Source: Bacteroidota bacterium (GTDB taxonomy: Bacteria; Bacteroidota; Bacteroidia; Bacteroidales; F082). Taken from it: a stretch of DNA of 64,000 bases. The stretch lies in contig WOUZ01000001.1 of assembly GCA_009773165.1 (NCBI GenBank), forward strand, positions 310,001-374,000, written 5' to 3'. A program made the translations under genes and the position numbers. Below the pieces are notes generated by a model. It had not been told where the DNA came from and searched no databases. It saw only the letters and a program-made list of their open reading frames with translations. Of the stretch, positions 38,329 to 51,417 are shown piece by piece (positions within the stretch are counted from its first letter, which is position 1; every line of letters starts with the position of its first letter).

Positions 38329-39423
38329 TTAAAATAATCCAGTTCTCTTTAAGTAATGCAATGAATTACCCGATTCATGAAGACAAATAGTTTCCCCAAT
38401 TGAAGAAACCACCTCATTAAGGGTTTTTGTACTTAACGAAGCATCTTTATCCAGATTTGGCTTATTGTCGTATAGTTGATAATTACGACGGTTGCTAACG
38501 GGGGTCAGATTAGGCATAACGACATTAGCTCCAGCCAGAATACCTTTCTGGCGTCCAAGAGGATCAAGGGTCTCGAGTGCAGTAGAGGCAGCTATATTGA
38601 TCCATGGCATGTTTATTCGCAAGAGTGCAATCATGATTAATCCCATTCGAAAACGTTCAGATGGTGACCACAATAAATGAGCTGAACTGAAAAGTGGTGT
38701 GTCGGCATGCTCGATGTAAGGTCCCATTCCAACCATGTCAACATCCAAAGATCGAAAAAACAACAAATCATCCGCCAAATCAGCTATTGTTTGATTGGGC
38801 AAGCCAATCATTACTCCTGTACCAACTTGAAATCCAGCATGTTTTAAATCAGCCAGGGCATTCATGCGCTGATCGAAATCATGATTTTTATCATGCGGAT
38901 GAATCTGATAAAAAAGCTCCTTATTGGTAGTTTCAATGCGCAACAGATACCTATCGGCCCCTGCTTGTCTCCATTCTTTATATGTTTCCTGCGACTGCTC
39001 TCCACAAGAAAGTGTTATAGTTAGTTCGTTATTAGTGTGTTTATGAATCTCCTGCAATAATGATGAAATCTGGCTTGTAAACCGCGTGCTTTTTTGTTCG
39101 CCTGTTTGAATGACAAGCGATCCAAATCCTTGCTGCCAGGAAAAATGAGCCGCATTCAAAACTTCTTCGGTGCTAAGCGTATAACGCTCAACCTTTATGT
39201 TGACAGCACGAATGCCACAATAATAACAGTTTTTGCTGCACACATTCGAAAGCTCGATTAAGCCTCGCAAATAAACCTTGCGTCCGGGATGAGCTGCTTT
39301 TACTTCCAGCCCTTTGTCCAAAACAAGCTGGGTTTCATGCGCTGACTGAACAGAAAGCAACCTGATCAGTTCATCTTTTGTGTGTTGGGTTTTTTGTAAT
39401 AATGATTCTATCTGTTCGCTCAT
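38329..39423 (-). CDS. hydE: [FeFe]-hydrogenase H-cluster radical SAM maturase HydE
   Basis: LIELSNVCSKNCYYCGIRAVN (CxxxCxxC), BioB-like body, neighbours hydF/hydG. Confidence 0.95.
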   Translation of the reverse strand: MSEQIESLLQKTQHTKDELIRLLSVQSAHETQLVLDKGLEVKAAHPGRKVYLRGLIELSNVCSKNCYYCGIRAVNIKVERYTLSTEEVLNAAHFSWQQGFGSLVIQTGEQKSTRFTSQISSLLQEIHKHTNNELTITLSCGEQSQETYKEWRQAGADRYLLRIETTNKELFYQIHPHDKNHDFDQRMNALADLKHAGFQVGTGVMIGLPNQTIADLADDLLFFRSLDVDMVGMGPYIEHADTPLFSSAHLLWSPSERFRMGLIMIALLRINMPWINIAASTALETLDPLGRQKGILAGANVVMPNLTPVSNRRNYQLYDNKPNLDKDASLSTKTLNEVVSSIGETICLHESGNSLHYLKRTGLF

Positions 39424-40628
39424 TGCAGGAGTTTAGCAAAGGGTTCCATAACGCGGTCGAAAATTCCGTTCAGGTAAGCAATGGTCATTCCATAATTACT
39501 TACAGCAATTTGAGCATCAACTGCAGGTTTCAGGCGGTTGAGCAACTGTTTGCGGGTTACAACACAGCCCCCGCATTGAATTACCATTTTGTACTTGCTG
39601 ATATCGGCTACAGTATTTAATCCTGAAACAATTTCAAAGTTGAGTTCTTTTCCTGAAAACTCCTTAATCCACCTTGGGAGCTTATGCCTTCCGATATCTT
39701 CGCAACTAACCTGATGTGTGCACGATTCAAGGATGAGGATACTATCTCCGTTTTGAAGCTTTCCTAAAGCAGGAGTTCCAGCTATATAGTGTTCAAAATC
39801 ACCCCGTAGGCGTGCAAAAACGATGCTAAAGCTCGTGAGAGGAATATCTGAGGGCACAATAGAGTTGACAAAAGCAAATGCCTGACTGTCAGTAACAACT
39901 AATTGTGGCCTAGGCATCTGCTGATCAAAATATTGTTTCAGATGCGTTTCTTTTAAAACTATACATATATTATCATTATCAAGCACATCGCGGATTGCCA
40001 TGATCTGAGGCAAAATCATTCTCCCGTCAGGGGCTTCAGAATCGATCGGTGTTACTAAAAGTACAACGCCATCAGGCTCAACAATCCCGCCCAACAACGA
40101 TGGTTTTTGATAGGTTGTTTCCGGAATAATACGCTTTAGTTCATCGGTGAGTTTTTCCAGACCCTGATTATTAATTGTTGTAAAATCAATCACCGTTGCC
40201 TTGCTAAACTCCCTTATTTTGTCAAGAGTAATTGGTTCAACCCCTTGAATATCACTTTTGTTATGAAGAATTAAGTAAGGTATGCCGAATTCTCTGAATT
40301 GTTTTATAAGCTCTTTTTCATAAAAGCCAAACTCATTGGAAGCAATCACGAGGATGGCACAATCGATAGTTTTTAAGGCTTCATAGGTTTTTTTAACCCT
40401 CTTCTCGCCTAATTCACCAGTGTCATCAATCCCTGCTGTATCAACAATGATAGCCGGTCCAATGCCAAATATCTCTATTGATTTTTTTACCGGGTCGGTC
40501 GTTGTTCCGGGTTCAGGCGAAACAATGGCTACATCCTGATTCACCATCAGGTTGATAATGGAACTTTTTCCATTATTTCGTCGGCCAAAGATGCCAATAT
40601 GTGGTTTTAAATCTTTTCCTTTTGCCAT
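39420..40628 (-). CDS. hydF: [FeFe]-hydrogenase H-cluster maturation GTPase HydF
   Basis: GRRNNGKSSIINL P-loop, DTAGIDDTGELG, C-terminal ESCTHQVSCEDIGR and CGGCVVTRKQL cluster ligands. Confidence 0.96.
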   Translation of the reverse strand: MAKGKDLKPHIGIFGRRNNGKSSIINLMVNQDVAIVSPEPGTTTDPVKKSIEIFGIGPAIIVDTAGIDDTGELGEKRVKKTYEALKTIDCAILVIASNEFGFYEKELIKQFREFGIPYLILHNKSDIQGVEPITLDKIREFSKATVIDFTTINNQGLEKLTDELKRIIPETTYQKPSLLGGIVEPDGVVLLVTPIDSEAPDGRMILPQIMAIRDVLDNDNICIVLKETHLKQYFDQQMPRPQLVVTDSQAFAFVNSIVPSDIPLTSFSIVFARLRGDFEHYIAGTPALGKLQNGDSILILESCTHQVSCEDIGRHKLPRWIKEFSGKELNFEIVSGLNTVADISKYKMVIQCGGCVVTRKQLLNRLKPAVDAQIAVSNYGMTIAYLNGIFDRVMEPFAKLLQ

Positions 40629-40640
40629 TTTTATAATCCA

Positions 40641-42068
40641 TTAAAAGTACAGATCTCTTTCTCCTTTGCGGATACGTTCGATACGCTCCTTCACTTGAGT
40701 TTTATAAGAATCATCATCCATTTCCTCAATGCTGCGTTCGATGAGCGCCCATCCCTTTACTGCCGTTGTTTCAGTCGCATAATCAGTGATGTATTCGGCG
40801 AGCGTTAGTAAAGCATTTGGGGTGCAGAATTTTTTTATGAAGCCTGGAACACTAAATTCCATAAAATGTTGACCAGTTCTGCCTTTCCGATAACATGCAG
40901 TGCAGAAAGAAGGTATATAGTCACTATCTATAAGTTCATCAATTACAGCGTTTAATGTTCTGTCATCATTGATTTTAAACTGTTCCTTGGTGAGATTCTG
41001 ATCCACATCTGGATTATCAGCATAAGCGCCGATTTCAAGTTTTGTACCAGCATCAATTTGGGAGCAACCAAAAGCAAGCACCTCTTTTCGAATGCGTTCA
41101 GGCTCACGAGCTGTTAAAATTAAGCCAGTGTATGGAACAGCCAGACGCAGTATTGCTACCAAACGAGTAAACTCATCATCTGAAACCTGATGTTTATCAT
41201 CGAGATCGTATTCCAGGGAATCCTGAATGCGAGGAAATGAAATGGTATGAGGACCAACATTGTAACATGCTTCGAGATGGTTAACATGGCGTAAAAGTGC
41301 TAACACTTCAAAACGCCAGTCATATAGTCCAAACAAAGCACCAATACCCACATCATCGATACCAACCTCCATTGCTCTGTCGAGTGCAGTAAGACGGTAA
41401 TCATATTCAGCTTTTTTTCCTGAAGGGTGGCACACTGCATAGGTTGGATGGTGATAGGTTTCCTGAAAAACCTGATAAGTCCCAATACCAGACTCATGAA
41501 TGGTTTTAAATCCTTCGATGTCAAAAGGTGCTGCATTGATGTTTACCCTTCGGATTTCGCCATGATCTTTTTTTACCTGATACACTTCCCTTACCGTATC
41601 GGCAATAAACTGAGCCGAATAGGTACGATGCTCACCAAAAACCAGAATAAGCCGTTTCTGACCATGTTCTTCAAGGGCTTTCACATTCTCAATCAGCTCT
41701 TCTTTGGTAAGTGTTTTTCTGATTGCGGTCGTATTGGAAGCTTTGAAACCACAATAACGGCAATTATTGGAGCAGTAATTGCCAACATACAACGGGGCAA
41801 AGAGCACAATGCGCTTGCCATATACTGTTTCTTTTAACGAACGTGCACCTTGTTTGATCCATTCAATCATTTCAGGATCAGTAGTGTTTAGCAAAACAGC
41901 TGTTTCGGCCAGAGTTAGCCGGTTTTTATTCAATGATTTGTTAATAATCGACCTTACTAATTCACGCTCAGGTTTTGCTGTTTCAATAAACTCCCAGATT
42001 TCATTGTCATCCAGAAAAGGCTGCATTGAAACATCAGGTATTTTGTATTGTTGTGGATAAAATTTCAC
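40641..42068 (-). CDS. hydG: [FeFe]-hydrogenase H-cluster radical SAM maturase HydG
   Basis: NYCSNNCRYCGFKASN (CxxxCxxC), C-terminal FCTACYRKGRTG cluster site. Confidence 0.97.
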   Translation of the reverse strand: MKFYPQQYKIPDVSMQPFLDDNEIWEFIETAKPERELVRSIINKSLNKNRLTLAETAVLLNTTDPEMIEWIKQGARSLKETVYGKRIVLFAPLYVGNYCSNNCRYCGFKASNTTAIRKTLTKEELIENVKALEEHGQKRLILVFGEHRTYSAQFIADTVREVYQVKKDHGEIRRVNINAAPFDIEGFKTIHESGIGTYQVFQETYHHPTYAVCHPSGKKAEYDYRLTALDRAMEVGIDDVGIGALFGLYDWRFEVLALLRHVNHLEACYNVGPHTISFPRIQDSLEYDLDDKHQVSDDEFTRLVAILRLAVPYTGLILTAREPERIRKEVLAFGCSQIDAGTKLEIGAYADNPDVDQNLTKEQFKINDDRTLNAVIDELIDSDYIPSFCTACYRKGRTGQHFMEFSVPGFIKKFCTPNALLTLAEYITDYATETTAVKGWALIERSIEEMDDDSYKTQVKERIERIRKGERDLYF

Positions 42069-42190: not shown

Positions 42191-43312
42191 TTAATTTCGT
42201 GGCAAAGATACAATGAAAGTTGTGCCTTTATCAGGAACACTCTTTACTTGAATTGTGCCATTGTATTGTTCAACCATTTTTTTTGTGATCGACAAGCCCA
42301 ATCCGCTACCAGTGATTTCTTTCGTTTTAGAGTTTTTAATACGTACAAAATCCTGGAATATTTTATCCAAATCTTCCTCACTCATGCCAATACCGGTATC
42401 AGCAACAGACATTACGATTTCTTTTTCGTGGTCTTCGATCAGTATCTCCACTTTTCCGTTATCGCTATTGTACTTTACTGCATTGGAAACGAGATTATTA
42501 AAAACAATTTCCATTTCATCGGCATCAGCAAGAAAATAGGTGTTACCTTTTACTTTTAGCGACATTTTCACGTTTTTTTGAATTGAATAAGGCTCCATTG
42601 TGTCCATAGCTGTTCGGGCAATAGCTCCCAGATCAATTTCACGTAGTTTACGTTCTTTCTTACCCGATTCAATTTTTGTGAGATCGAGTAAGTCCATGAT
42701 CAGGTTTCGCATTCCTTTGAGGCGGGCAAGCGAACGGTCGATCATTTTTTCATAATCTTCAATTTTATCTCCTAACTGCTTCTCTTGCATCATTTTAAGA
42801 TAGCCTTCAACGGCATTTAGAGGAGATTTTAATTCATGTGACAAAACAGACAAGAATTGAAAACGGATTTGCTTTCCTTCTGCCTGCATTTTTTTTGTCA
42901 TCCGTTTTAGATACAAATGCTTCGCCACATTTTCAATACTTGCCCGAAGTTCCTGTGGCGTAAACGGCTTTGGCATGAAATTGAAAGCTCCATTCTTGGT
43001 TGCTTTTATTGCGAGGTCGAGAGAAGCATAAGAGGTAATCATCATGACGGCAAGATCGAAACCTTGTTTTTTAATGTACTCAAGCACCTCGATGCCATCC
43101 ATTCCGGGCAGCTTATTGTCAAGCAACACCACATCTACCTTTTGTTGATTCAGAATCTCGATGGCTTCTTCGCCTGTTCCGGCATCGATGAGGTTAAAAT
43201 CAAAATCCTCATCCATAAAGGCATAGCCAACCGAATAATTACCAAGAATTCGCCGTATTCCTGACCGTATTCCAGGTTCGTCATCTACAATCAATACATG
43301 AAGTGTTGCCAT
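42191..43312 (-). CDS. REC-histidine kinase hybrid (receiver N-terminal, HisKA-HATPase C-terminal)
   Basis: REC (VLIVDDEPG…VVLLDNKLPGMDG…PKPF), H-box LSVLSHELKSPLNAVEGYL, HATPase NAVKYNSDNG…DTGIGMSEEDLDKIF…GSGLGLSITKKM. Confidence 0.93.
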   Translation of the reverse strand: MATLHVLIVDDEPGIRSGIRRILGNYSVGYAFMDEDFDFNLIDAGTGEEAIEILNQQKVDVVLLDNKLPGMDGIEVLEYIKKQGFDLAVMMITSYASLDLAIKATKNGAFNFMPKPFTPQELRASIENVAKHLYLKRMTKKMQAEGKQIRFQFLSVLSHELKSPLNAVEGYLKMMQEKQLGDKIEDYEKMIDRSLARLKGMRNLIMDLLDLTKIESGKKERKLREIDLGAIARTAMDTMEPYSIQKNVKMSLKVKGNTYFLADADEMEIVFNNLVSNAVKYNSDNGKVEILIEDHEKEIVMSVADTGIGMSEEDLDKIFQDFVRIKNSKTKEITGSGLGLSITKKMVEQYNGTIQVKSVPDKGTTFIVSLPRN

Positions 43313-43336: not shown

Positions 43337-43732
43337 CTACAGTTTCAGAAGTTTGTTAATTTCACGATGCAATTGATCGCTGCGAATACCCTTTTCGAGG
43401 TATAAATCGGCTTTAATCCAGCCTTTATTGTTATCGCTATACAAGTCGAAGCTATAGCCTGTTTCGGCTGTTGCTGCTGAAGCCATTATAATTGGCATTT
43501 CAGGATATTTACGTCGTGCTTTGTAACTGAGGATAAATCCACTATCTTCATTTTCCATCATCAAATCAAAGATGGCCAGATCAGGTTTGGTAGTCTCTAG
43601 AACTTTTTCGGCTTCAGCCTGACTTTCAGCAGTTTTGACCCTGAAACCTAAGTTTTTAACCATTGCCTCCATTTGGAATAAATAGTCGGCATCATCGTCA
43701 ACAATCAGAATCAGTTTTTTCTCGTTGCTCAT
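43337..43732 (-). CDS. Stand-alone receiver-domain protein, atypical
   Basis: LILIVDDDADYL, LAIFDLMMENEDSG; insertion before the last strand (DLYSDNNKGWIKADLYLEKG). Confidence 0.88.
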   Translation of the reverse strand: MSNEKKLILIVDDDADYLFQMEAMVKNLGFRVKTAESQAEAEKVLETTKPDLAIFDLMMENEDSGFILSYKARRKYPEMPIIMASAATAETGYSFDLYSDNNKGWIKADLYLEKGIRSDQLHREINKLLKL

Positions 43733-43757: not shown

Positions 43758-45746
43758 TTAATCGTTAGGGTTTCTCGGTAAGGTAATAATGAAACTCGTT
43801 CCCAAAGGTCCTTTTGTGGAAATGGTATTGGAAACGACGTTTATTTTTCCTTTATGCATTTTTACAATTCCGTAACAGAGTGGTAGTCCAAGACCGGTTC
43901 CTTTTCCTACTTCCTTCGTTGTAAAGAAAGGAGTGAAAATCTTATCCATATTTTCCTGCGAAATACCTGTTCCTGTGTCACGTATTGTGATATGAATATC
44001 GTCATTTTTATCGTTAAGAATGACCGTTAGTTCGCCTCCATCTGGCATTGCTTCGATGGCGTTTTTCTCAAGATTGGTAAGTACCTGCATCATTTGATCT
44101 GCATCAATAAACAGGTAAGGATCCTGAAGTTCAACTTCCAGTTTTACTGTAACAGATTGAGGTACAACAATTGATTGCAAGCTTCGGGTAGCAAACTTCT
44201 CGAGATGTGTTTCAGTTAGACGTACTTGATTCTTGCGTGCAAAATTCAATAATCCGCCCACAATTTTTCTACAGCGATCAGCTTGCTCAACAATCAGTTG
44301 CAGATCATCACGTAATGATGCATCTGTAGTATCATCGAGTATGAGGTTGCTATACATGGTTATTACACCAAGCGGGTTGTTAAGTTCATGAGCAATTCCG
44401 GCTGAAAGCTGACCCATATGTGCCAGTTTTTCGGATTGCTTAAGTGCTTCGCGTGCTGAATTGAGTTCGATATTTGAAAAGTTCAGCTTTTCGATTGATT
44501 GGTGAAGTTTTTCGATTGCATAAGGCAGGCACATTTCGTTTTCTGCCAAACCCTGAACAATTGCAATAGCATGTTCCACACACGTATCGTAACCGCAAGC
44601 TCCACAATCGAGATAGTCGGAAGCGTCGTTCTTACCCATGTTGAATAACACCTCAGCTATGCGTTCGGATGAAGGTTTATCCATTCTGCGATCCATTGCC
44701 TGGAAGCTGTTGGAAAGATCGATACCCTCAGCAATACTCATTTGCTGATTCCACTCATCTTTATCAAGTTTTTTCATTTTGTTTTCAACAAACTGAGAAA
44801 CAAGAGCGCGCCGTTGGTACTTATTTCCAATTTTTGTCATTCCTGGTCCCATGATGCATCCTTCGCAACACAAAAGTTCGAGATGGCGCACCTTTAATGT
44901 TCCTTTGCCAAACTCATTGATGGCATCCATGAAATTGCGTCGTCCTTCAGCTACAATGATGTCACCTTTGGTGAGATCAGGTTCGACATCCATGTTCTGT
45001 AAAAGACCATGACTTATTGGAAACACAGCACCTTTACCCGCGTGAGGAGGATCAAATTCACGAGGTTCGACGGCTTCAGGCCGAATGTTTTTTATTTCAA
45101 AAAGTTCTCTTAATTCGCTGAATGTCAGAGAATAATGAATGTCATCCGATTCAGCTTTTTTTGCAATACAAGGACCGATAAAAACGATTTGAAGGTCATC
45201 GCCATGCTTCTTCTTTAAAAAACGCGAAGCAGCAACCATTGGTGAAACCAAAGGTGCAAGATTAGAAACCAGCTCTGGCTGAAAATGTTCAACATAATAA
45301 ACGATTGCGGGACAATCGGATGAAATGATACCCGTACCATTGTTTTTCTCATAGATATCGCGATAAGCAACAGCCACCATATCAGCACCAAAAGCAACTT
45401 CAGTAACCAAATCGAAGCCAAGAGCCTTCACCATTCCAACTAAAATCTGGTAATCCTCTATTTCGGTGAACTCAGCCGGAAAACTTGGGGCAAGGCAAGC
45501 AGCGGTTCTTTGACCTGAGTCAAGTAATGCGATCACTTCATCAGTAAGTTTTAAGAACACTTTTGCATCCTGACTGCAAACACGAACACAATTACCACAA
45601 CCAATGCAGCGCTCACTGATGACTTCGGCTTGCCCGTTAACGATTTTTATTGCTTTCACTGGACATTCGCGCACGCAGGTGAAACATACGCGACAACGGT
45701 CTTTAACAGTGAATACCAATTGCTTATGTTTGCTGTTATGTGCCAT
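43758..45746 (-). CDS. Sensory [FeFe]-hydrogenase-like histidine kinase (HydS / group C-like): 2[4Fe-4S]-H-cluster domain-[4Fe-4S]-HisKA-HATPase
   Basis: CxxCxxxCP ferredoxin motifs; L1 ISSDCPAIVYY, L2 IGPCIAKKAES, L3 ELLCCEGCIMGPGM; CGACGYDTCVEHA; H-box MGQLSAGIAHELNNPLGVI; NLEKNAIEAMPDGG. Confidence 0.93.
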   Translation of the reverse strand: MAHNSKHKQLVFTVKDRCRVCFTCVRECPVKAIKIVNGQAEVISERCIGCGNCVRVCSQDAKVFLKLTDEVIALLDSGQRTAACLAPSFPAEFTEIEDYQILVGMVKALGFDLVTEVAFGADMVAVAYRDIYEKNNGTGIISSDCPAIVYYVEHFQPELVSNLAPLVSPMVAASRFLKKKHGDDLQIVFIGPCIAKKAESDDIHYSLTFSELRELFEIKNIRPEAVEPREFDPPHAGKGAVFPISHGLLQNMDVEPDLTKGDIIVAEGRRNFMDAINEFGKGTLKVRHLELLCCEGCIMGPGMTKIGNKYQRRALVSQFVENKMKKLDKDEWNQQMSIAEGIDLSNSFQAMDRRMDKPSSERIAEVLFNMGKNDASDYLDCGACGYDTCVEHAIAIVQGLAENEMCLPYAIEKLHQSIEKLNFSNIELNSAREALKQSEKLAHMGQLSAGIAHELNNPLGVITMYSNLILDDTTDASLRDDLQLIVEQADRCRKIVGGLLNFARKNQVRLTETHLEKFATRSLQSIVVPQSVTVKLEVELQDPYLFIDADQMMQVLTNLEKNAIEAMPDGGELTVILNDKNDDIHITIRDTGTGISQENMDKIFTPFFTTKEVGKGTGLGLPLCYGIVKMHKGKINVVSNTISTKGPLGTSFIITLPRNPND

Positions 45747-45799: not shown

Positions 45800-47521
45800 T
45801 TAAAAAATATCTCTTTTTTGATAATGAGTATGTAAAAGGTGGTGGCTCTTATGTCCAAGAGGTTTCCCAAGGAATTTATCATATAATTCAACAATGTAAG
45901 GATTTTTATGAGAAACCTTGATGGCATCTTTTTCGTCGATGTCGTACAATGTCCTCATTCGCGCTCTTATGGCATCTTCATCAGCACCAATTGGCTGTCC
46001 TCCACCATTGATACACCCTCCTGGGCAAGCCATTACTTCGATAAAATGAATATCGCTGCGTCCATTACGAACTTCTTCGATTATGTCGGCAGCATTTTTC
46101 AATCCACTTACCACAGCAACACCCACTCGCAGGTCGCCCATCTGTACAAAAGCCTCTTTACGTCCTTCCAAACCCCTTACACCTTTCACCTGAAACTTAA
46201 CCATTTCCTTTCCTGTCACAAAATAATGCGCTGTTCTGATGGCAGCTTCCATGACACCGCCTGATGATCCGAAAAGTTTACCTGCCGAGGAACGTGTTCC
46301 CAGTGGCGAATCGGCCAATTCAGGCTCAAGTTTATTGATATCAATTCCATGCATGCGAATGAGTCGGGCAAGTTCGCGGGTGGTAAGCACAGCATCCACA
46401 TCAGAAATGCCATTTTGTGTCATTTCTTCCCTTTGCTGCTCAAACTTTTTAGCTGTGCAAGGCATCACTGAAACCGAGTAGATATTTTCGGGTGCCAGGC
46501 CTTCTGTTTCAGCAAAATAACTCTTAATGATGGCTCCCATCATTTGTTGAGGAGATTTGCATGAAGAAAGATGAGGCAACATATCATGACTAAACTCTTC
46601 TGCATACTTGACCCATCCCGGGCAACAACTTGTGATCATCGGCAGCACACCCTGATTGGTAATGCGATGCACCAATTCGGAAGCTTCCTCCATAATCGTA
46701 AGGTCGGCTGAGAATGAGGTGTCAAAAACAAAATCGAAACCGATTCGGCGAAGCGCAGCATTCATCAAGCCAATTATATTATGCCCGGGTTGAAATCCAA
46801 ACTCTTCTGCCAATGAAACAGAAATGGAAGGAGCGTATTGAATAACGACAGTTTTTGAAGGATCGCTCAGGTTGTTTTTTATTTCAGAAATATGTGGTTT
46901 TTCTTTTAAAGCGCCTGTAGGGCAAACCATTATACACTGACCGCAGTTAATACATGTAGATAGGTTTAATCCATGATTAAAAGAAGTGTCGATAAATGTT
47001 TTACTACCTCTGCCTACAAACTCAATAGCAGATACACCTTCTATTTCATCGCACACGCGCACACATCTTCCACAAAGGATGCACTTTGCGGGATCGCGAA
47101 CGATACTTGCACTCGAAACATCTAACTTGTAATTGTTTTTTGTGCCGCTAATTCTTCTTTCTCTTACGTTGAGATCCTCAGATAATTTCTGAAGCTCGCA
47201 GTTACCGTTACGTTCGCAATATAAACAGTCATCCGGGTGGTTTGAAAGCAGTAATTCAACGATTGTTTTACGTGATTCAATAACCCTCGATGAGTGGGTC
47301 TTTATTTTCATTCCGGGCATGACAGGTTCTGAGCAGGCTGTCACCAGATTGCGACGTCCTTCAACTTCTACCACACACATGCGGCATGAGCCTGTTGGGA
47401 ATAGCCCTTTCATGTGGCATAAAGTTGGCACACTCATACCATGGCGATTCAGCACGTCGAGAATAGTCTCGCCCTGTTTGGCCTCTATTGTATTATTATT
47501 TACTTCTATCGTGAGATTCAT
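45800..47521 (-). CDS. hydA: [FeFe]-hydrogenase catalytic subunit, HydA of NAD(H)-linked HydABC type
   Basis: N-terminal 2Fe-2S, His-ligated cluster (HPDDCLYCERNGNCELQ), two 4Fe-4S, H-cluster ITSCCPGWVKYAEEF / MPCTAKKFEQ / EVMACPGGCINGGGQP. Confidence 0.96.
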   Translation of the reverse strand: MNLTIEVNNNTIEAKQGETILDVLNRHGMSVPTLCHMKGLFPTGSCRMCVVEVEGRRNLVTACSEPVMPGMKIKTHSSRVIESRKTIVELLLSNHPDDCLYCERNGNCELQKLSEDLNVRERRISGTKNNYKLDVSSASIVRDPAKCILCGRCVRVCDEIEGVSAIEFVGRGSKTFIDTSFNHGLNLSTCINCGQCIMVCPTGALKEKPHISEIKNNLSDPSKTVVIQYAPSISVSLAEEFGFQPGHNIIGLMNAALRRIGFDFVFDTSFSADLTIMEEASELVHRITNQGVLPMITSCCPGWVKYAEEFSHDMLPHLSSCKSPQQMMGAIIKSYFAETEGLAPENIYSVSVMPCTAKKFEQQREEMTQNGISDVDAVLTTRELARLIRMHGIDINKLEPELADSPLGTRSSAGKLFGSSGGVMEAAIRTAHYFVTGKEMVKFQVKGVRGLEGRKEAFVQMGDLRVGVAVVSGLKNAADIIEEVRNGRSDIHFIEVMACPGGCINGGGQPIGADEDAIRARMRTLYDIDEKDAIKVSHKNPYIVELYDKFLGKPLGHKSHHLLHTHYQKRDIF

Positions 47522-47553: not shown

Positions 47554-49490
<1,937 letters not shown>

Positions 49491-49494
<4 letters not shown>

Positions 49495-49961
49495 GATTGA
49501 GTCTCCTTGTTTCTGTAAACTTCAAGAATGGATTTTATGGATTCGCTTGTTACCTTGGCATGAAACTCGCCATTAACACTGATAACTGGAGCTAATCCAC
49601 ATGCTCCGATACACGCAACCACTTCGAGACTGAAGAGTTTGTCGCGTGTTGTTAGTCCTGCTTTTACCTTCAATTGTTTTTCCATCTCTTCAAGCACTGT
49701 GGCCGAACCCAGTACGTGACAGGCAGTGCCTCTACAAACCTGAACATGATATTTTCCAGGCTGGGTGAAGCGAAACTGATTGTAAAAGGTAGCCACACCA
49801 AATATTTTACTGGCGGGCATTTTAAGATACTTTCCAACTTCAATCACAGCCTCTTCTGAAAGGAAGCCTAATTTTTCCTGAACCTGTTGGAGGATTGGGA
49901 TAAGGCTATCGTGGCCTGCGTTTGGATAATGTGTTAAAATTTCTTGAACTGTACTTTTCAT
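49491..49961 (-). CDS. hydC: NuoE/HydC-like 2Fe-2S hydrogenase subunit
   Basis: VQVCRGTACHVLGS…EVVACIGACGLAPVISVNGEFH. Confidence 0.95.
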
Positions 49962-50065: not shown

Positions 50066-50584
50066 TCAGGCTTTGATTTGTTCTGATTTTTTGGCCAAAA
50101 TACGCTGTACTTCCGGTAGTACTCTGCTTTTGTCAACAGGTTTGCGGATAAAACCATCAACAGGCACCCACACTGAGCGTCCGTCTTCGGCACGGTAATC
50201 GATACCAGAATTGCCAGTAACGATGTCACGAATAAGAATCACCTGTAATTCTTTGTAATTAGGATCATTTCTGAACTCACGAGCCATGGCCTGAACACTT
50301 GGCTTTGTTGTCATGAGTACCTCAATAGAGGTTTCCATAAGAGTGGGTATGTGTTGAAGAGCAGGATTATCAACAAATTCTTTGGCCATTTCAAAACCTT
50401 CATAATGAGTTGTCATCATTACATCGAGGATTGCGAGATCAGGTTTCTGATTGATAGCCAGATCAATACCTTCTTGCTTATTAAAGGCTGAAATAACTTC
50501 ATATCCTTCACTGGTGAGTATTTGTTCTAATACAGTGATCACATCCATGTCGTCATCAACCACTAAAATTTTTGCTTTTTCCAT
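50066..50584 (-). CDS. Stand-alone receiver protein with large insertion
   Basis: ILVVDDDMDVITVLEQIL, LAILDVMM, C-terminal GFIRKPVD; 172 aa rather than ~120. Confidence 0.88.
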   Translation of the reverse strand: MEKAKILVVDDDMDVITVLEQILTSEGYEVISAFNKQEGIDLAINQKPDLAILDVMMTTHYEGFEMAKEFVDNPALQHIPTLMETSIEVLMTTKPSVQAMAREFRNDPNYKELQVILIRDIVTGNSGIDYRAEDGRSVWVPVDGFIRKPVDKSRVLPEVQRILAKKSEQIKA

Positions 50585-50645: not shown

Positions 50646-50745
50646 CAATGAAACATTGATTGAAAACAGGTTGGTTGTTACTGATTTCACAATGAAGTAA
50701 TAGGAAGAAAGGAGAAGAATAACCAGTAATTTCAGGCAAAAAGAA

Positions 50746-50772: not shown

Positions 50773-51417
50773 TTACATACTAATCAATCCATTACGTATA
50801 GCATAAGCAAGCAAAGCAACTGTATTTTTAGCTGCAGTTTTGGCCATTAAATTTGATTTATGTCCAACGATTGTGCGCTCACTTACAAACAGACGGTCGG
50901 CAATTTCCTTATTACTAAGACCTTCACCGAGTAATTGGAGCACTTCAATTTCACGTTTAGTCAGGACCAGCTCATTTTCGTGTTTTTCTTCTTTAACGAA
51001 ACTTTTGGTAAAATAATCCCAAAGCTCTTCGCTGTAATAGGTTTTACCGTTATAAACAGCTTGTAAAGCTCTGTCGAGCACTTCTTTACGGATATTTTTT
51101 ATCAGGAATCCTTTAACCCCGGCTTCCATCATGCTTTGTATGTAAGCATCGTCCTTGTACATTGTCAAGGCAATCACTTTCAGGGAAGGGTATTTTTCAA
51201 TTGCTTTTTTTGTTGCTTCGATGCCATTCATGACAGGCATTTCGATATCCATTAAAACGAGATCCGTTTCCTCATGCTCAAGTATCCCAAGAAACTCAAC
51301 TCCATCAGTGGCTTCACCTACAACCTTTGCATAACCAAGCTTGTTGATTACCATTTTTAAGCCACTACGAAAAATTTCATGATCATCTACAATGATAACC
51401 CGGATGAGTGATTCCAT
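50773..51417 (-). CDS. NarL/FixJ-family response regulator (REC + LuxR HTH)
   Basis: VIIVDDHEIFRSGLKMVI, LMDIEMPVMNG, LTKREIEVLQLLGEGLSNKEIADRLFVSERTIVGHKSNLMAK. Confidence 0.95.
   Translation of the reverse strand: MESLIRVIIVDDHEIFRSGLKMVINKLGYAKVVGEATDGVEFLGILEHEETDLVLMDIEMPVMNGIEATKKAIEKYPSLKVIALTMYKDDAYIQSMMEAGVKGFLIKNIRKEVLDRALQAVYNGKTYYSEELWDYFTKSFVKEEKHENELVLTKREIEVLQLLGEGLSNKEIADRLFVSERTIVGHKSNLMAKTAAKNTVALLAYAIRNGLISM

Follow-up and report, generated by a model that had tools for sequence, protein, structure and literature searches.

Histidine kinase-linked group C [FeFe]-hydrogenases are listed in HydDB as subgroup C1, and BfuT, a C3 hydrogenase of the Hydrogenedentota that likewise includes a histidine kinase domain, is found beside the A3 hydrogenase BfuABC (PMC11406978). 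Since both kinase-fused types have already been described, the architecture of an H-cluster domain linked to a kinase is not new. How sensory [FeFe]-hydrogenases convert H2 into a signal is an open question, and the pKa of the proton donor has so far been probed only by mutation. Site-saturation of C298 in CaHydA revealed that only Asp sustains high activity at this position, kcat going down about two-fold (PMC3485046). In the crystal structure of CpI C299D the carboxylate is hydrogen-bonded to the ADT amine and to a conserved water; no accumulation of Hhyd is seen in this variant (PMC6226526). The exchange of Cys for Asp moved the bias toward H2 evolution and allowed more Hox to be retained under H2. 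In sensory enzymes the C299 site is occupied by Cys (17%), Ala (about 43%), Pro (about 10%) or Ser (about 10%) (PMC10055695), and in TmHydS the exchange A131C lowered the activity. Our search of freely available main texts for an enzyme that naturally has Asp here returned only engineered variants, which does not prove that none has been described. Work on the Cys to Asp swap has hitherto dealt chiefly with mutants made in the laboratory.

In the window (the whole stretch of 64,000 nucleotides that was analysed) the gene at 43758..45746, which like all features of the window given below lies on the minus strand, encodes from an ATG start a protein of 662 amino acids, here named HydS-HK. Pfam and an AlphaFold2 model revealed an H-cluster domain fused to a histidine kinase (order Fer4x2, Fe_hyd_lg_C, FeS, HisKA, HATPase_c), as an earlier note on this DNA had claimed. 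The N-terminal 2x[4Fe-4S] part (residues 14-61, 45564..45707, Pfam Fer4 pair) contains the cysteines C18, C21, C24 and C28 and C47, C50, C53 and C57. The H-cluster domain (residues 81-301, 44844..45506, Fe_hyd_lg_C PF02906, 1.7e-42) is followed by a third [4Fe-4S] site (residues 379-408, 44523..44612, FeS PF04060) with C381, C384, C389 and C406 in the spacing Cx2Cx4Cx16C; it includes the extra cluster motif CGACGYDTC (residues 381-389) that had been noticed between sensor and kinase. A helical linker (residues 407-442, 44421..44528, AlphaFold2 helices) leads from the FeS domain to the HisKA dimerisation and phosphoacceptor domain (residues 444-506, 44229..44417, PF00512), which harbors the predicted phosphoacceptor His453 (44388..44390) in the motif AHELNNP, and to HATPase_c (residues 548-659, 43770..44105, PF02518). 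The H, N, G1, F and G2 boxes of the kinase are all intact and largely invariant across 45 aligned orthologues, among which His453 and the 12 cysteines of the three accessory clusters are invariant.

The earlier note had seen no obvious PAS domain between the hydrogenase part and the kinase, and indeed none was detected by Pfam in HydS-HK at E<=0.001; C406, the last cluster cysteine, is separated from the phospho-histidine H453 by just 46 residues. A hidden PAS domain was considered and rejected because this gap is too short. Structure prediction, proposed in the same note, yielded a model with a mean pLDDT of 77 (mostly above 90 in the H-domain), in which the first half matches the hydrogenases CbA5H, HydABC and CpI and the second, kinase half matches ZraS. 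The modelled helices span residues 407-432 and 443-472, and the helix from the third cluster domain appears to head toward the HisKA helix, a geometry of low confidence because pLDDT is below 50 between residues 417 and 458.

The H-cluster ligands are Cys145 in SSDCP (residues 142-146; 45312..45314; CpI C300) and Cys193 in GPCIAKK (residues 191-197; 45168..45170; CpI C355), both assigned from motif and orthologue conservation, and Cys294 and Cys297 in LELLCCEGC (residues 289-297; 44856..44867; CpI C499 and C503), assigned from motif, conservation and hhalign. The cysteines expected from the motifs DCP, GPCIAKK and CCEGC are therefore all present, with the refinement that the ligands of CCEGC are C294 and C297. 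These form a CxxC pair, one residue shorter than the CxxxC of the HydA encoded in the window. CCEGC as a source of three ligands was rejected because some orthologues have G, S or A instead of C293.

Asp144 (codon GAT, 45315..45317) is the equivalent of CpI Cys299, the proton-relay cysteine, in two independent alignments, and the position given to it from the letters alone held. In phmmer D144 pairs with CpI position 299, and among CpI sequences 6glz, confirmed to be the solved C299D variant, scores best against HydS-HK (52.4 bits versus 48.2 for the wild type); by hhalign profile comparison D144 is in the same register as C299 of TSCCP in the window HydA. Further replacements relative to CpI are M353 by G191, M497 by L292 and S319 by A164, and no clear acidic counterpart of E279 or E282 was recognised in the alignments, including hhalign against the window HydA. 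With S319 replaced and E279/E282 without counterpart, the group A proton chain (C299-E279-S319-E282) is missing in HydS-HK. L248 aligns in hhalign against the window HydA with CpI V423, the presumed equivalent of TamHydS E252.

The loss of the cysteine could be taken to imply a blocked relay or weakened proton transfer. This reading needs revision, since the engineered Asp keeps high turnover (PMC3485046, PMC6226526); Asp is not a dead substitution because CaHydA C298D remains active and CpI C299D bonds the ADT amine. A prediction of low turnover is better based on G191, L292, A164 and the lack of a recognisable E279/E282. Because the canonical chain beyond Asp144 is not recognisable, the residue may be no proton relay and may act instead on redox tuning or on the placement of the amine. 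As the group A chain is missing, we favor a tuning role, in which Asp144 would accept a proton or fix the amine and would set the H2 level at which the H-cluster domain switches.

The Asp is fixed across a Bacteroidales clade and is not a one-off of the source genome, as judged from sequence comparison: position 144 is Asp in 102 of 104 distinct Bacteroidales HydS-HK orthologues and Asn in two, and C145, C193, C294 and C297 are kept in all 104. Orthologues of the sensor domain are common in the order at about 49-62% identity and in the family at 57-86%; a profile search with a 7-sequence alignment added 80 orthologues from a named genome collection, nearly all of them Bacteroidales MAGs. Less closely related families of the phylum contributed 21 kinase-fused homologues, in which the C299 site is Pro (12), Ala (6) or Ser (3), and in 13 PAS-type homologues resembling the second copy of the genome it is Ala (8), Ser (4) or Thr (1). 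A quick tree was calculated with the column of this site removed; its alpha clade is moderately supported (87) and the position of its root is not known. On it the Asp state requires two changes, and again two when L104 and L108, beta-labelled copies of alpha proteins, were left out. One contig titled Alphaproteobacteria (L204) carries a typical Bacteroidales operon of layout II (see below) and is probably a mislabelled bin. The hydrogenase-domain protein at L080:6422-10468, 1348 aa long and with the motif IAQPCP, groups in the tree with the MCP-linked type.

Alternatively, Asp144 would have no special role: the site would tolerate various residues in sensory hydrogenases, and Asp would have become fixed in the clade by chance. 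The wide variation of the C299 site in sensory enzymes (PMC10055695) would fit, as would the lower activity of TmHydS A131C, which indicates that Cys is not needed there. Against it stands the retention of Asp in 102 of 104 orthologues over identities of about 49-86%; in the 45-sequence alignment D144 is invariant and its neighbors S142, S143, A147 and V149 are only nearly so. We regard chance fixation of Asp as unlikely. For the features of HydS-HK as such, chance is excluded by their conservation over more than 100 orthologues.

HydS-HK is encoded in an operon of the order REC1-HydC-HydB-HydA-HydS-REC2-REC/HK-HydG-HydF-HydE, which is common to homologues in other families of the phylum; in the window the spacing between successive genes ranges from -4 to 122 bp. 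REC1 (50066..50584, PF00072), a stand-alone receiver conserved in layout I, is the first gene of the directon. It is followed by HydC (49491..49961, NuoE-like, PF01257), HydB (47554..49494, NuoF-like with C-terminal 2x[4Fe-4S], Pfam) and HydA (45800..47521), the catalytic subunit of a hydrogenase of the NADH-linked bifurcating type (NF040763, group A6, above cut-off), in which C299, E279, E282, S319, M353 and M497 (CpI-like numbering) are all intact. Downstream of HydS-HK lie REC2 (43337..43732, PF00072), a stand-alone receiver and probable phosphoacceptor partner, and a REC-HisKA-HATPase protein (42191..43312, Pfam), which would be the second kinase of the proposed relay. The maturases HydG (40641..42068, TIGR03955), HydF (39420..40628, TIGR03918) and HydE (38329..39423, TIGR03956), all above cut-off, complete the directon.

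Among loci with enough contig, HydA is directly upstream of HydS-HK in 93 of 95 and the REC2-REC/HK pair directly downstream in 86 of 86; this pair is the most promising recipient of phosphoryl groups from HydS-HK. No DNA-binding output domain is encoded within the window operon. The sole DNA-binding regulator adjoining it, a response regulator of LuxR/NarL type (50773..51417), lies upstream, and a LuxR-type regulator was found in 14 of 27 layout I loci with enough flank, a partial association. The close company of HydA in 93 of 95 loci could also mean that HydS-HK is mainly a slow catalytic hydrogenase or a subunit docking to HydABC, with a kinase for the control of assembly or activity rather than for H2 sensing, and Asp at the C299 site does permit high turnover in engineered enzymes. 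The intact kinase boxes and the unfailing REC pair, however, point to signalling, and the changes at M353 and M497 together with the lost proton chain predict low turnover, which leaves a mainly catalytic or docking function quite improbable.

The loci fall into two layouts that do not mix. Layout I, to which the window belongs, comprises 37 loci and layout II 59 loci, eight loci being too short to assign. In layout II the hydrogenase HydS-beta, which is of PAS type, and a SpoIIE-like protein are encoded divergently, and REC/HK is followed by Rex, RibF and an MBL protein. A Rex gene is present in 47 of 49 loci of layout II, whereas no layout I locus has one. In the window a palindrome resembling a Rex operator, TTGTGAAATCAGTAACAA, is located at 50675-50692, at a distance of 90 bp from REC1 on its upstream side, and is conserved in near relatives. 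The consensus published for Rex is TTGTGAANNNNTTCACAA, and the half-site variant of TTGTGAAATCAGTAACAA occurs once in the 4.38-Mb genome. With at most one mismatch, 9 of 34 promoters of layout I have a Rex-like site (0.16 expected from shuffles), most of these nine being from close relatives of the window, as do 15 of 51 promoters of layout II (0.42 expected). The source genome contains three Rex genes and, at two loci, four hydrogenase-domain proteins. The second locus (G000, contig C9, L076:4275-14684) encodes HydB, a 695-aa HydA, a SpoIIE-like phosphatase and a PAS-type sensory hydrogenase with CTACP, and is flanked by two Rex genes. One layout I locus (L121) has after HydE, at the end of the operon, a second HydS homologue of 592 aa with 38% identity.

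HydA of layout II keeps the four ligand cysteines in 57 of 57 proteins, but just 13 of these have E279 and just 36 have C299. The commonest replacement at C299 is Asp (8 proteins, motif SSDCP or TSDCP), besides Ser, Phe, His and others; altered HydA proteins are encoded, for example, at L132:7956-9680, L134:10916-12640, L135:7867-9591 and L119:4408-6132. E279 or C299 is altered in 45 of 57 layout II versus 0 of 36 layout I proteins, a contrast inflated by kinship; a test on independent tree pairs had two pairs, on starred branches (p 0.5), and because this test is underpowered the link between layout and HydA decay relies on counts of related sequences. HydS-beta has lost at least one H-cluster cysteine in 17 of 43 proteins and kept nearly all accessory-cluster cysteines; the cysteine-deficient forms (L140:3228-5174, L141:3548-5464, L124:3455-5320 and 14 others) are possibly pseudo-hydrogenase sensors. 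We tentatively entertain the idea that in Bacteroidales Asp144, as an acidic group at the bridging amine, sets an H2 threshold without the usual proton chain, in the manner of C299D in engineered enzymes, and that HydABC of layout II, with all its H-cluster ligands but without the proton pathway, has become a low-turnover signalling complex working with a PAS (pseudo-)hydrogenase and Rex, although we rather doubt it.

That 17 of 43 HydS-beta proteins lack the full set of H-cluster cysteines makes signalling without an H-cluster plausible in this family. HydS-HK, with its 12 invariant accessory-cluster cysteines, could accordingly read the redox poise of the ferredoxin pool via its [4Fe-4S] clusters, the H-cluster being an electron sink or poise point and not an H2 receptor. 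It would then be hard to explain why the H-cluster cysteines are conserved in 104 and Asp144 in 102 of 104 orthologues, and the maturases are encoded in the same directon. A sensor of ferredoxin poise alone is thus in our opinion not likely.

We consider it probable that HydS-HK is an H2- or redox-responsive autokinase, tuned by Asp144 and feeding REC partners, that is co-encoded with a bifurcating hydrogenase and HydEFG. The reasons are the intact domains and kinase boxes, the conservation of the ligand cysteines and of Asp144, the constant neighborhood of HydA and the REC pair, the maturases in the directon, the Rex-like site and the published behavior of the engineered Asp variants; expression data on the group C enzyme of R. 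albus fit H2 sensing. The proposal is weakened because the operon lacks a DNA-binding output and its LuxR-type neighbor is inconsistently linked, and direct physiological evidence on group C enzymes is thin. In the proposed sequence of events HydEFG from the same directon would load the H-cluster held by C145, C193, C294 and C297 of the cytoplasmic HydS-HK. Binding of H2 or reduction at the H-cluster would change the state of the H-domain, with Asp144 as protonatable group beside the bridging amine. The change would be passed to the Cx2Cx4Cx16C cluster domain and via the direct helix to HisKA, without a PAS relay. The data on TamHydS speak against a reduction of its C-terminal cluster by H2, and a conformational route is therefore likelier than electron flow to the cluster. 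The change in HisKA would alter autophosphorylation of His453, from which the phosphoryl group would be transferred to REC2 and/or to the receiver of the REC-HK protein; between them the two would adjust the amount or the use of the co-encoded HydABC. Transcription of the operon is probably under separate control by Rex, which responds to NADH/NAD+.

The clade with fixed Asp and its sister groups, in which the residue is Asn, Pro, Ala or Ser, offer a natural series for the proton-donor site. The kinase output of HydS-HK would give a direct readout, and REC2 and REC-HK are a defined partner set for reconstitution. Layout II adds natural group A-like HydA proteins with Asp at a site described as strictly Cys in functional enzymes.

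By its features HydS-HK is filed as a PAS-less, kinase-fused variant of group C and not as a typical M2f enzyme. It has the four ligand cysteines, the N-terminal 2x[4Fe-4S], the C-terminal Cx2Cx4Cx16C and substitutions at C299, M353 and M497 that characterize group C, and lacks the PAS domain used in several papers as a hallmark of this group (M2f); it was kept in group C because HydDB describes C1 by kinase linkage. Group D (M2e) has Ala at C299 and a hydroxyl residue at M353, where HydS-HK has Asp144 and Gly191. Compared by description, HydDB C1 shares with HydS-HK the H-cluster domain, the N-terminal 2x[4Fe-4S], the C-terminal [4Fe-4S], the kinase link and the altered C299, M353 and M497; the clade-fixed Asp, the lack of PAS and the direct HisKA fusion set HydS-HK apart. 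BfuT, also compared by description, is likewise a sensory hydrogenase-kinase fusion encoded beside a bifurcating hydrogenase, and the accessible part of its report mentions neither Asp nor a REC/REC-HK pair (PMC11406978). The literature searched held no description of a fixed Asp, of the strict REC2-REC/HK companionship or of two exclusive layouts, which is not proof of novelty.

In the published numbering, TmHydS from Thermotoga maritima (group C) has G177 at the M353 site, as HydS-HK has G191, and also a C-terminal [4Fe-4S]; it differs by Ala131, Ser267 and PAS, where HydS-HK has Asp144, Leu292 and a kinase. TamHydS from Thermoanaerobacter mathranii (group D) has in common with HydS-HK the Cx2Cx4Cx16C, the absence of PAS, Leu at M497 and the largely lost group A proton pathway, and differs by Ala137 at the C299 site, the proposed relay E252 and the absence of a fused kinase. 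CpI C299D and CaHydA C298D carry Asp at the same aligned position as HydS-HK; they are engineered catalytic enzymes in which the rest of the proton pathway is intact.
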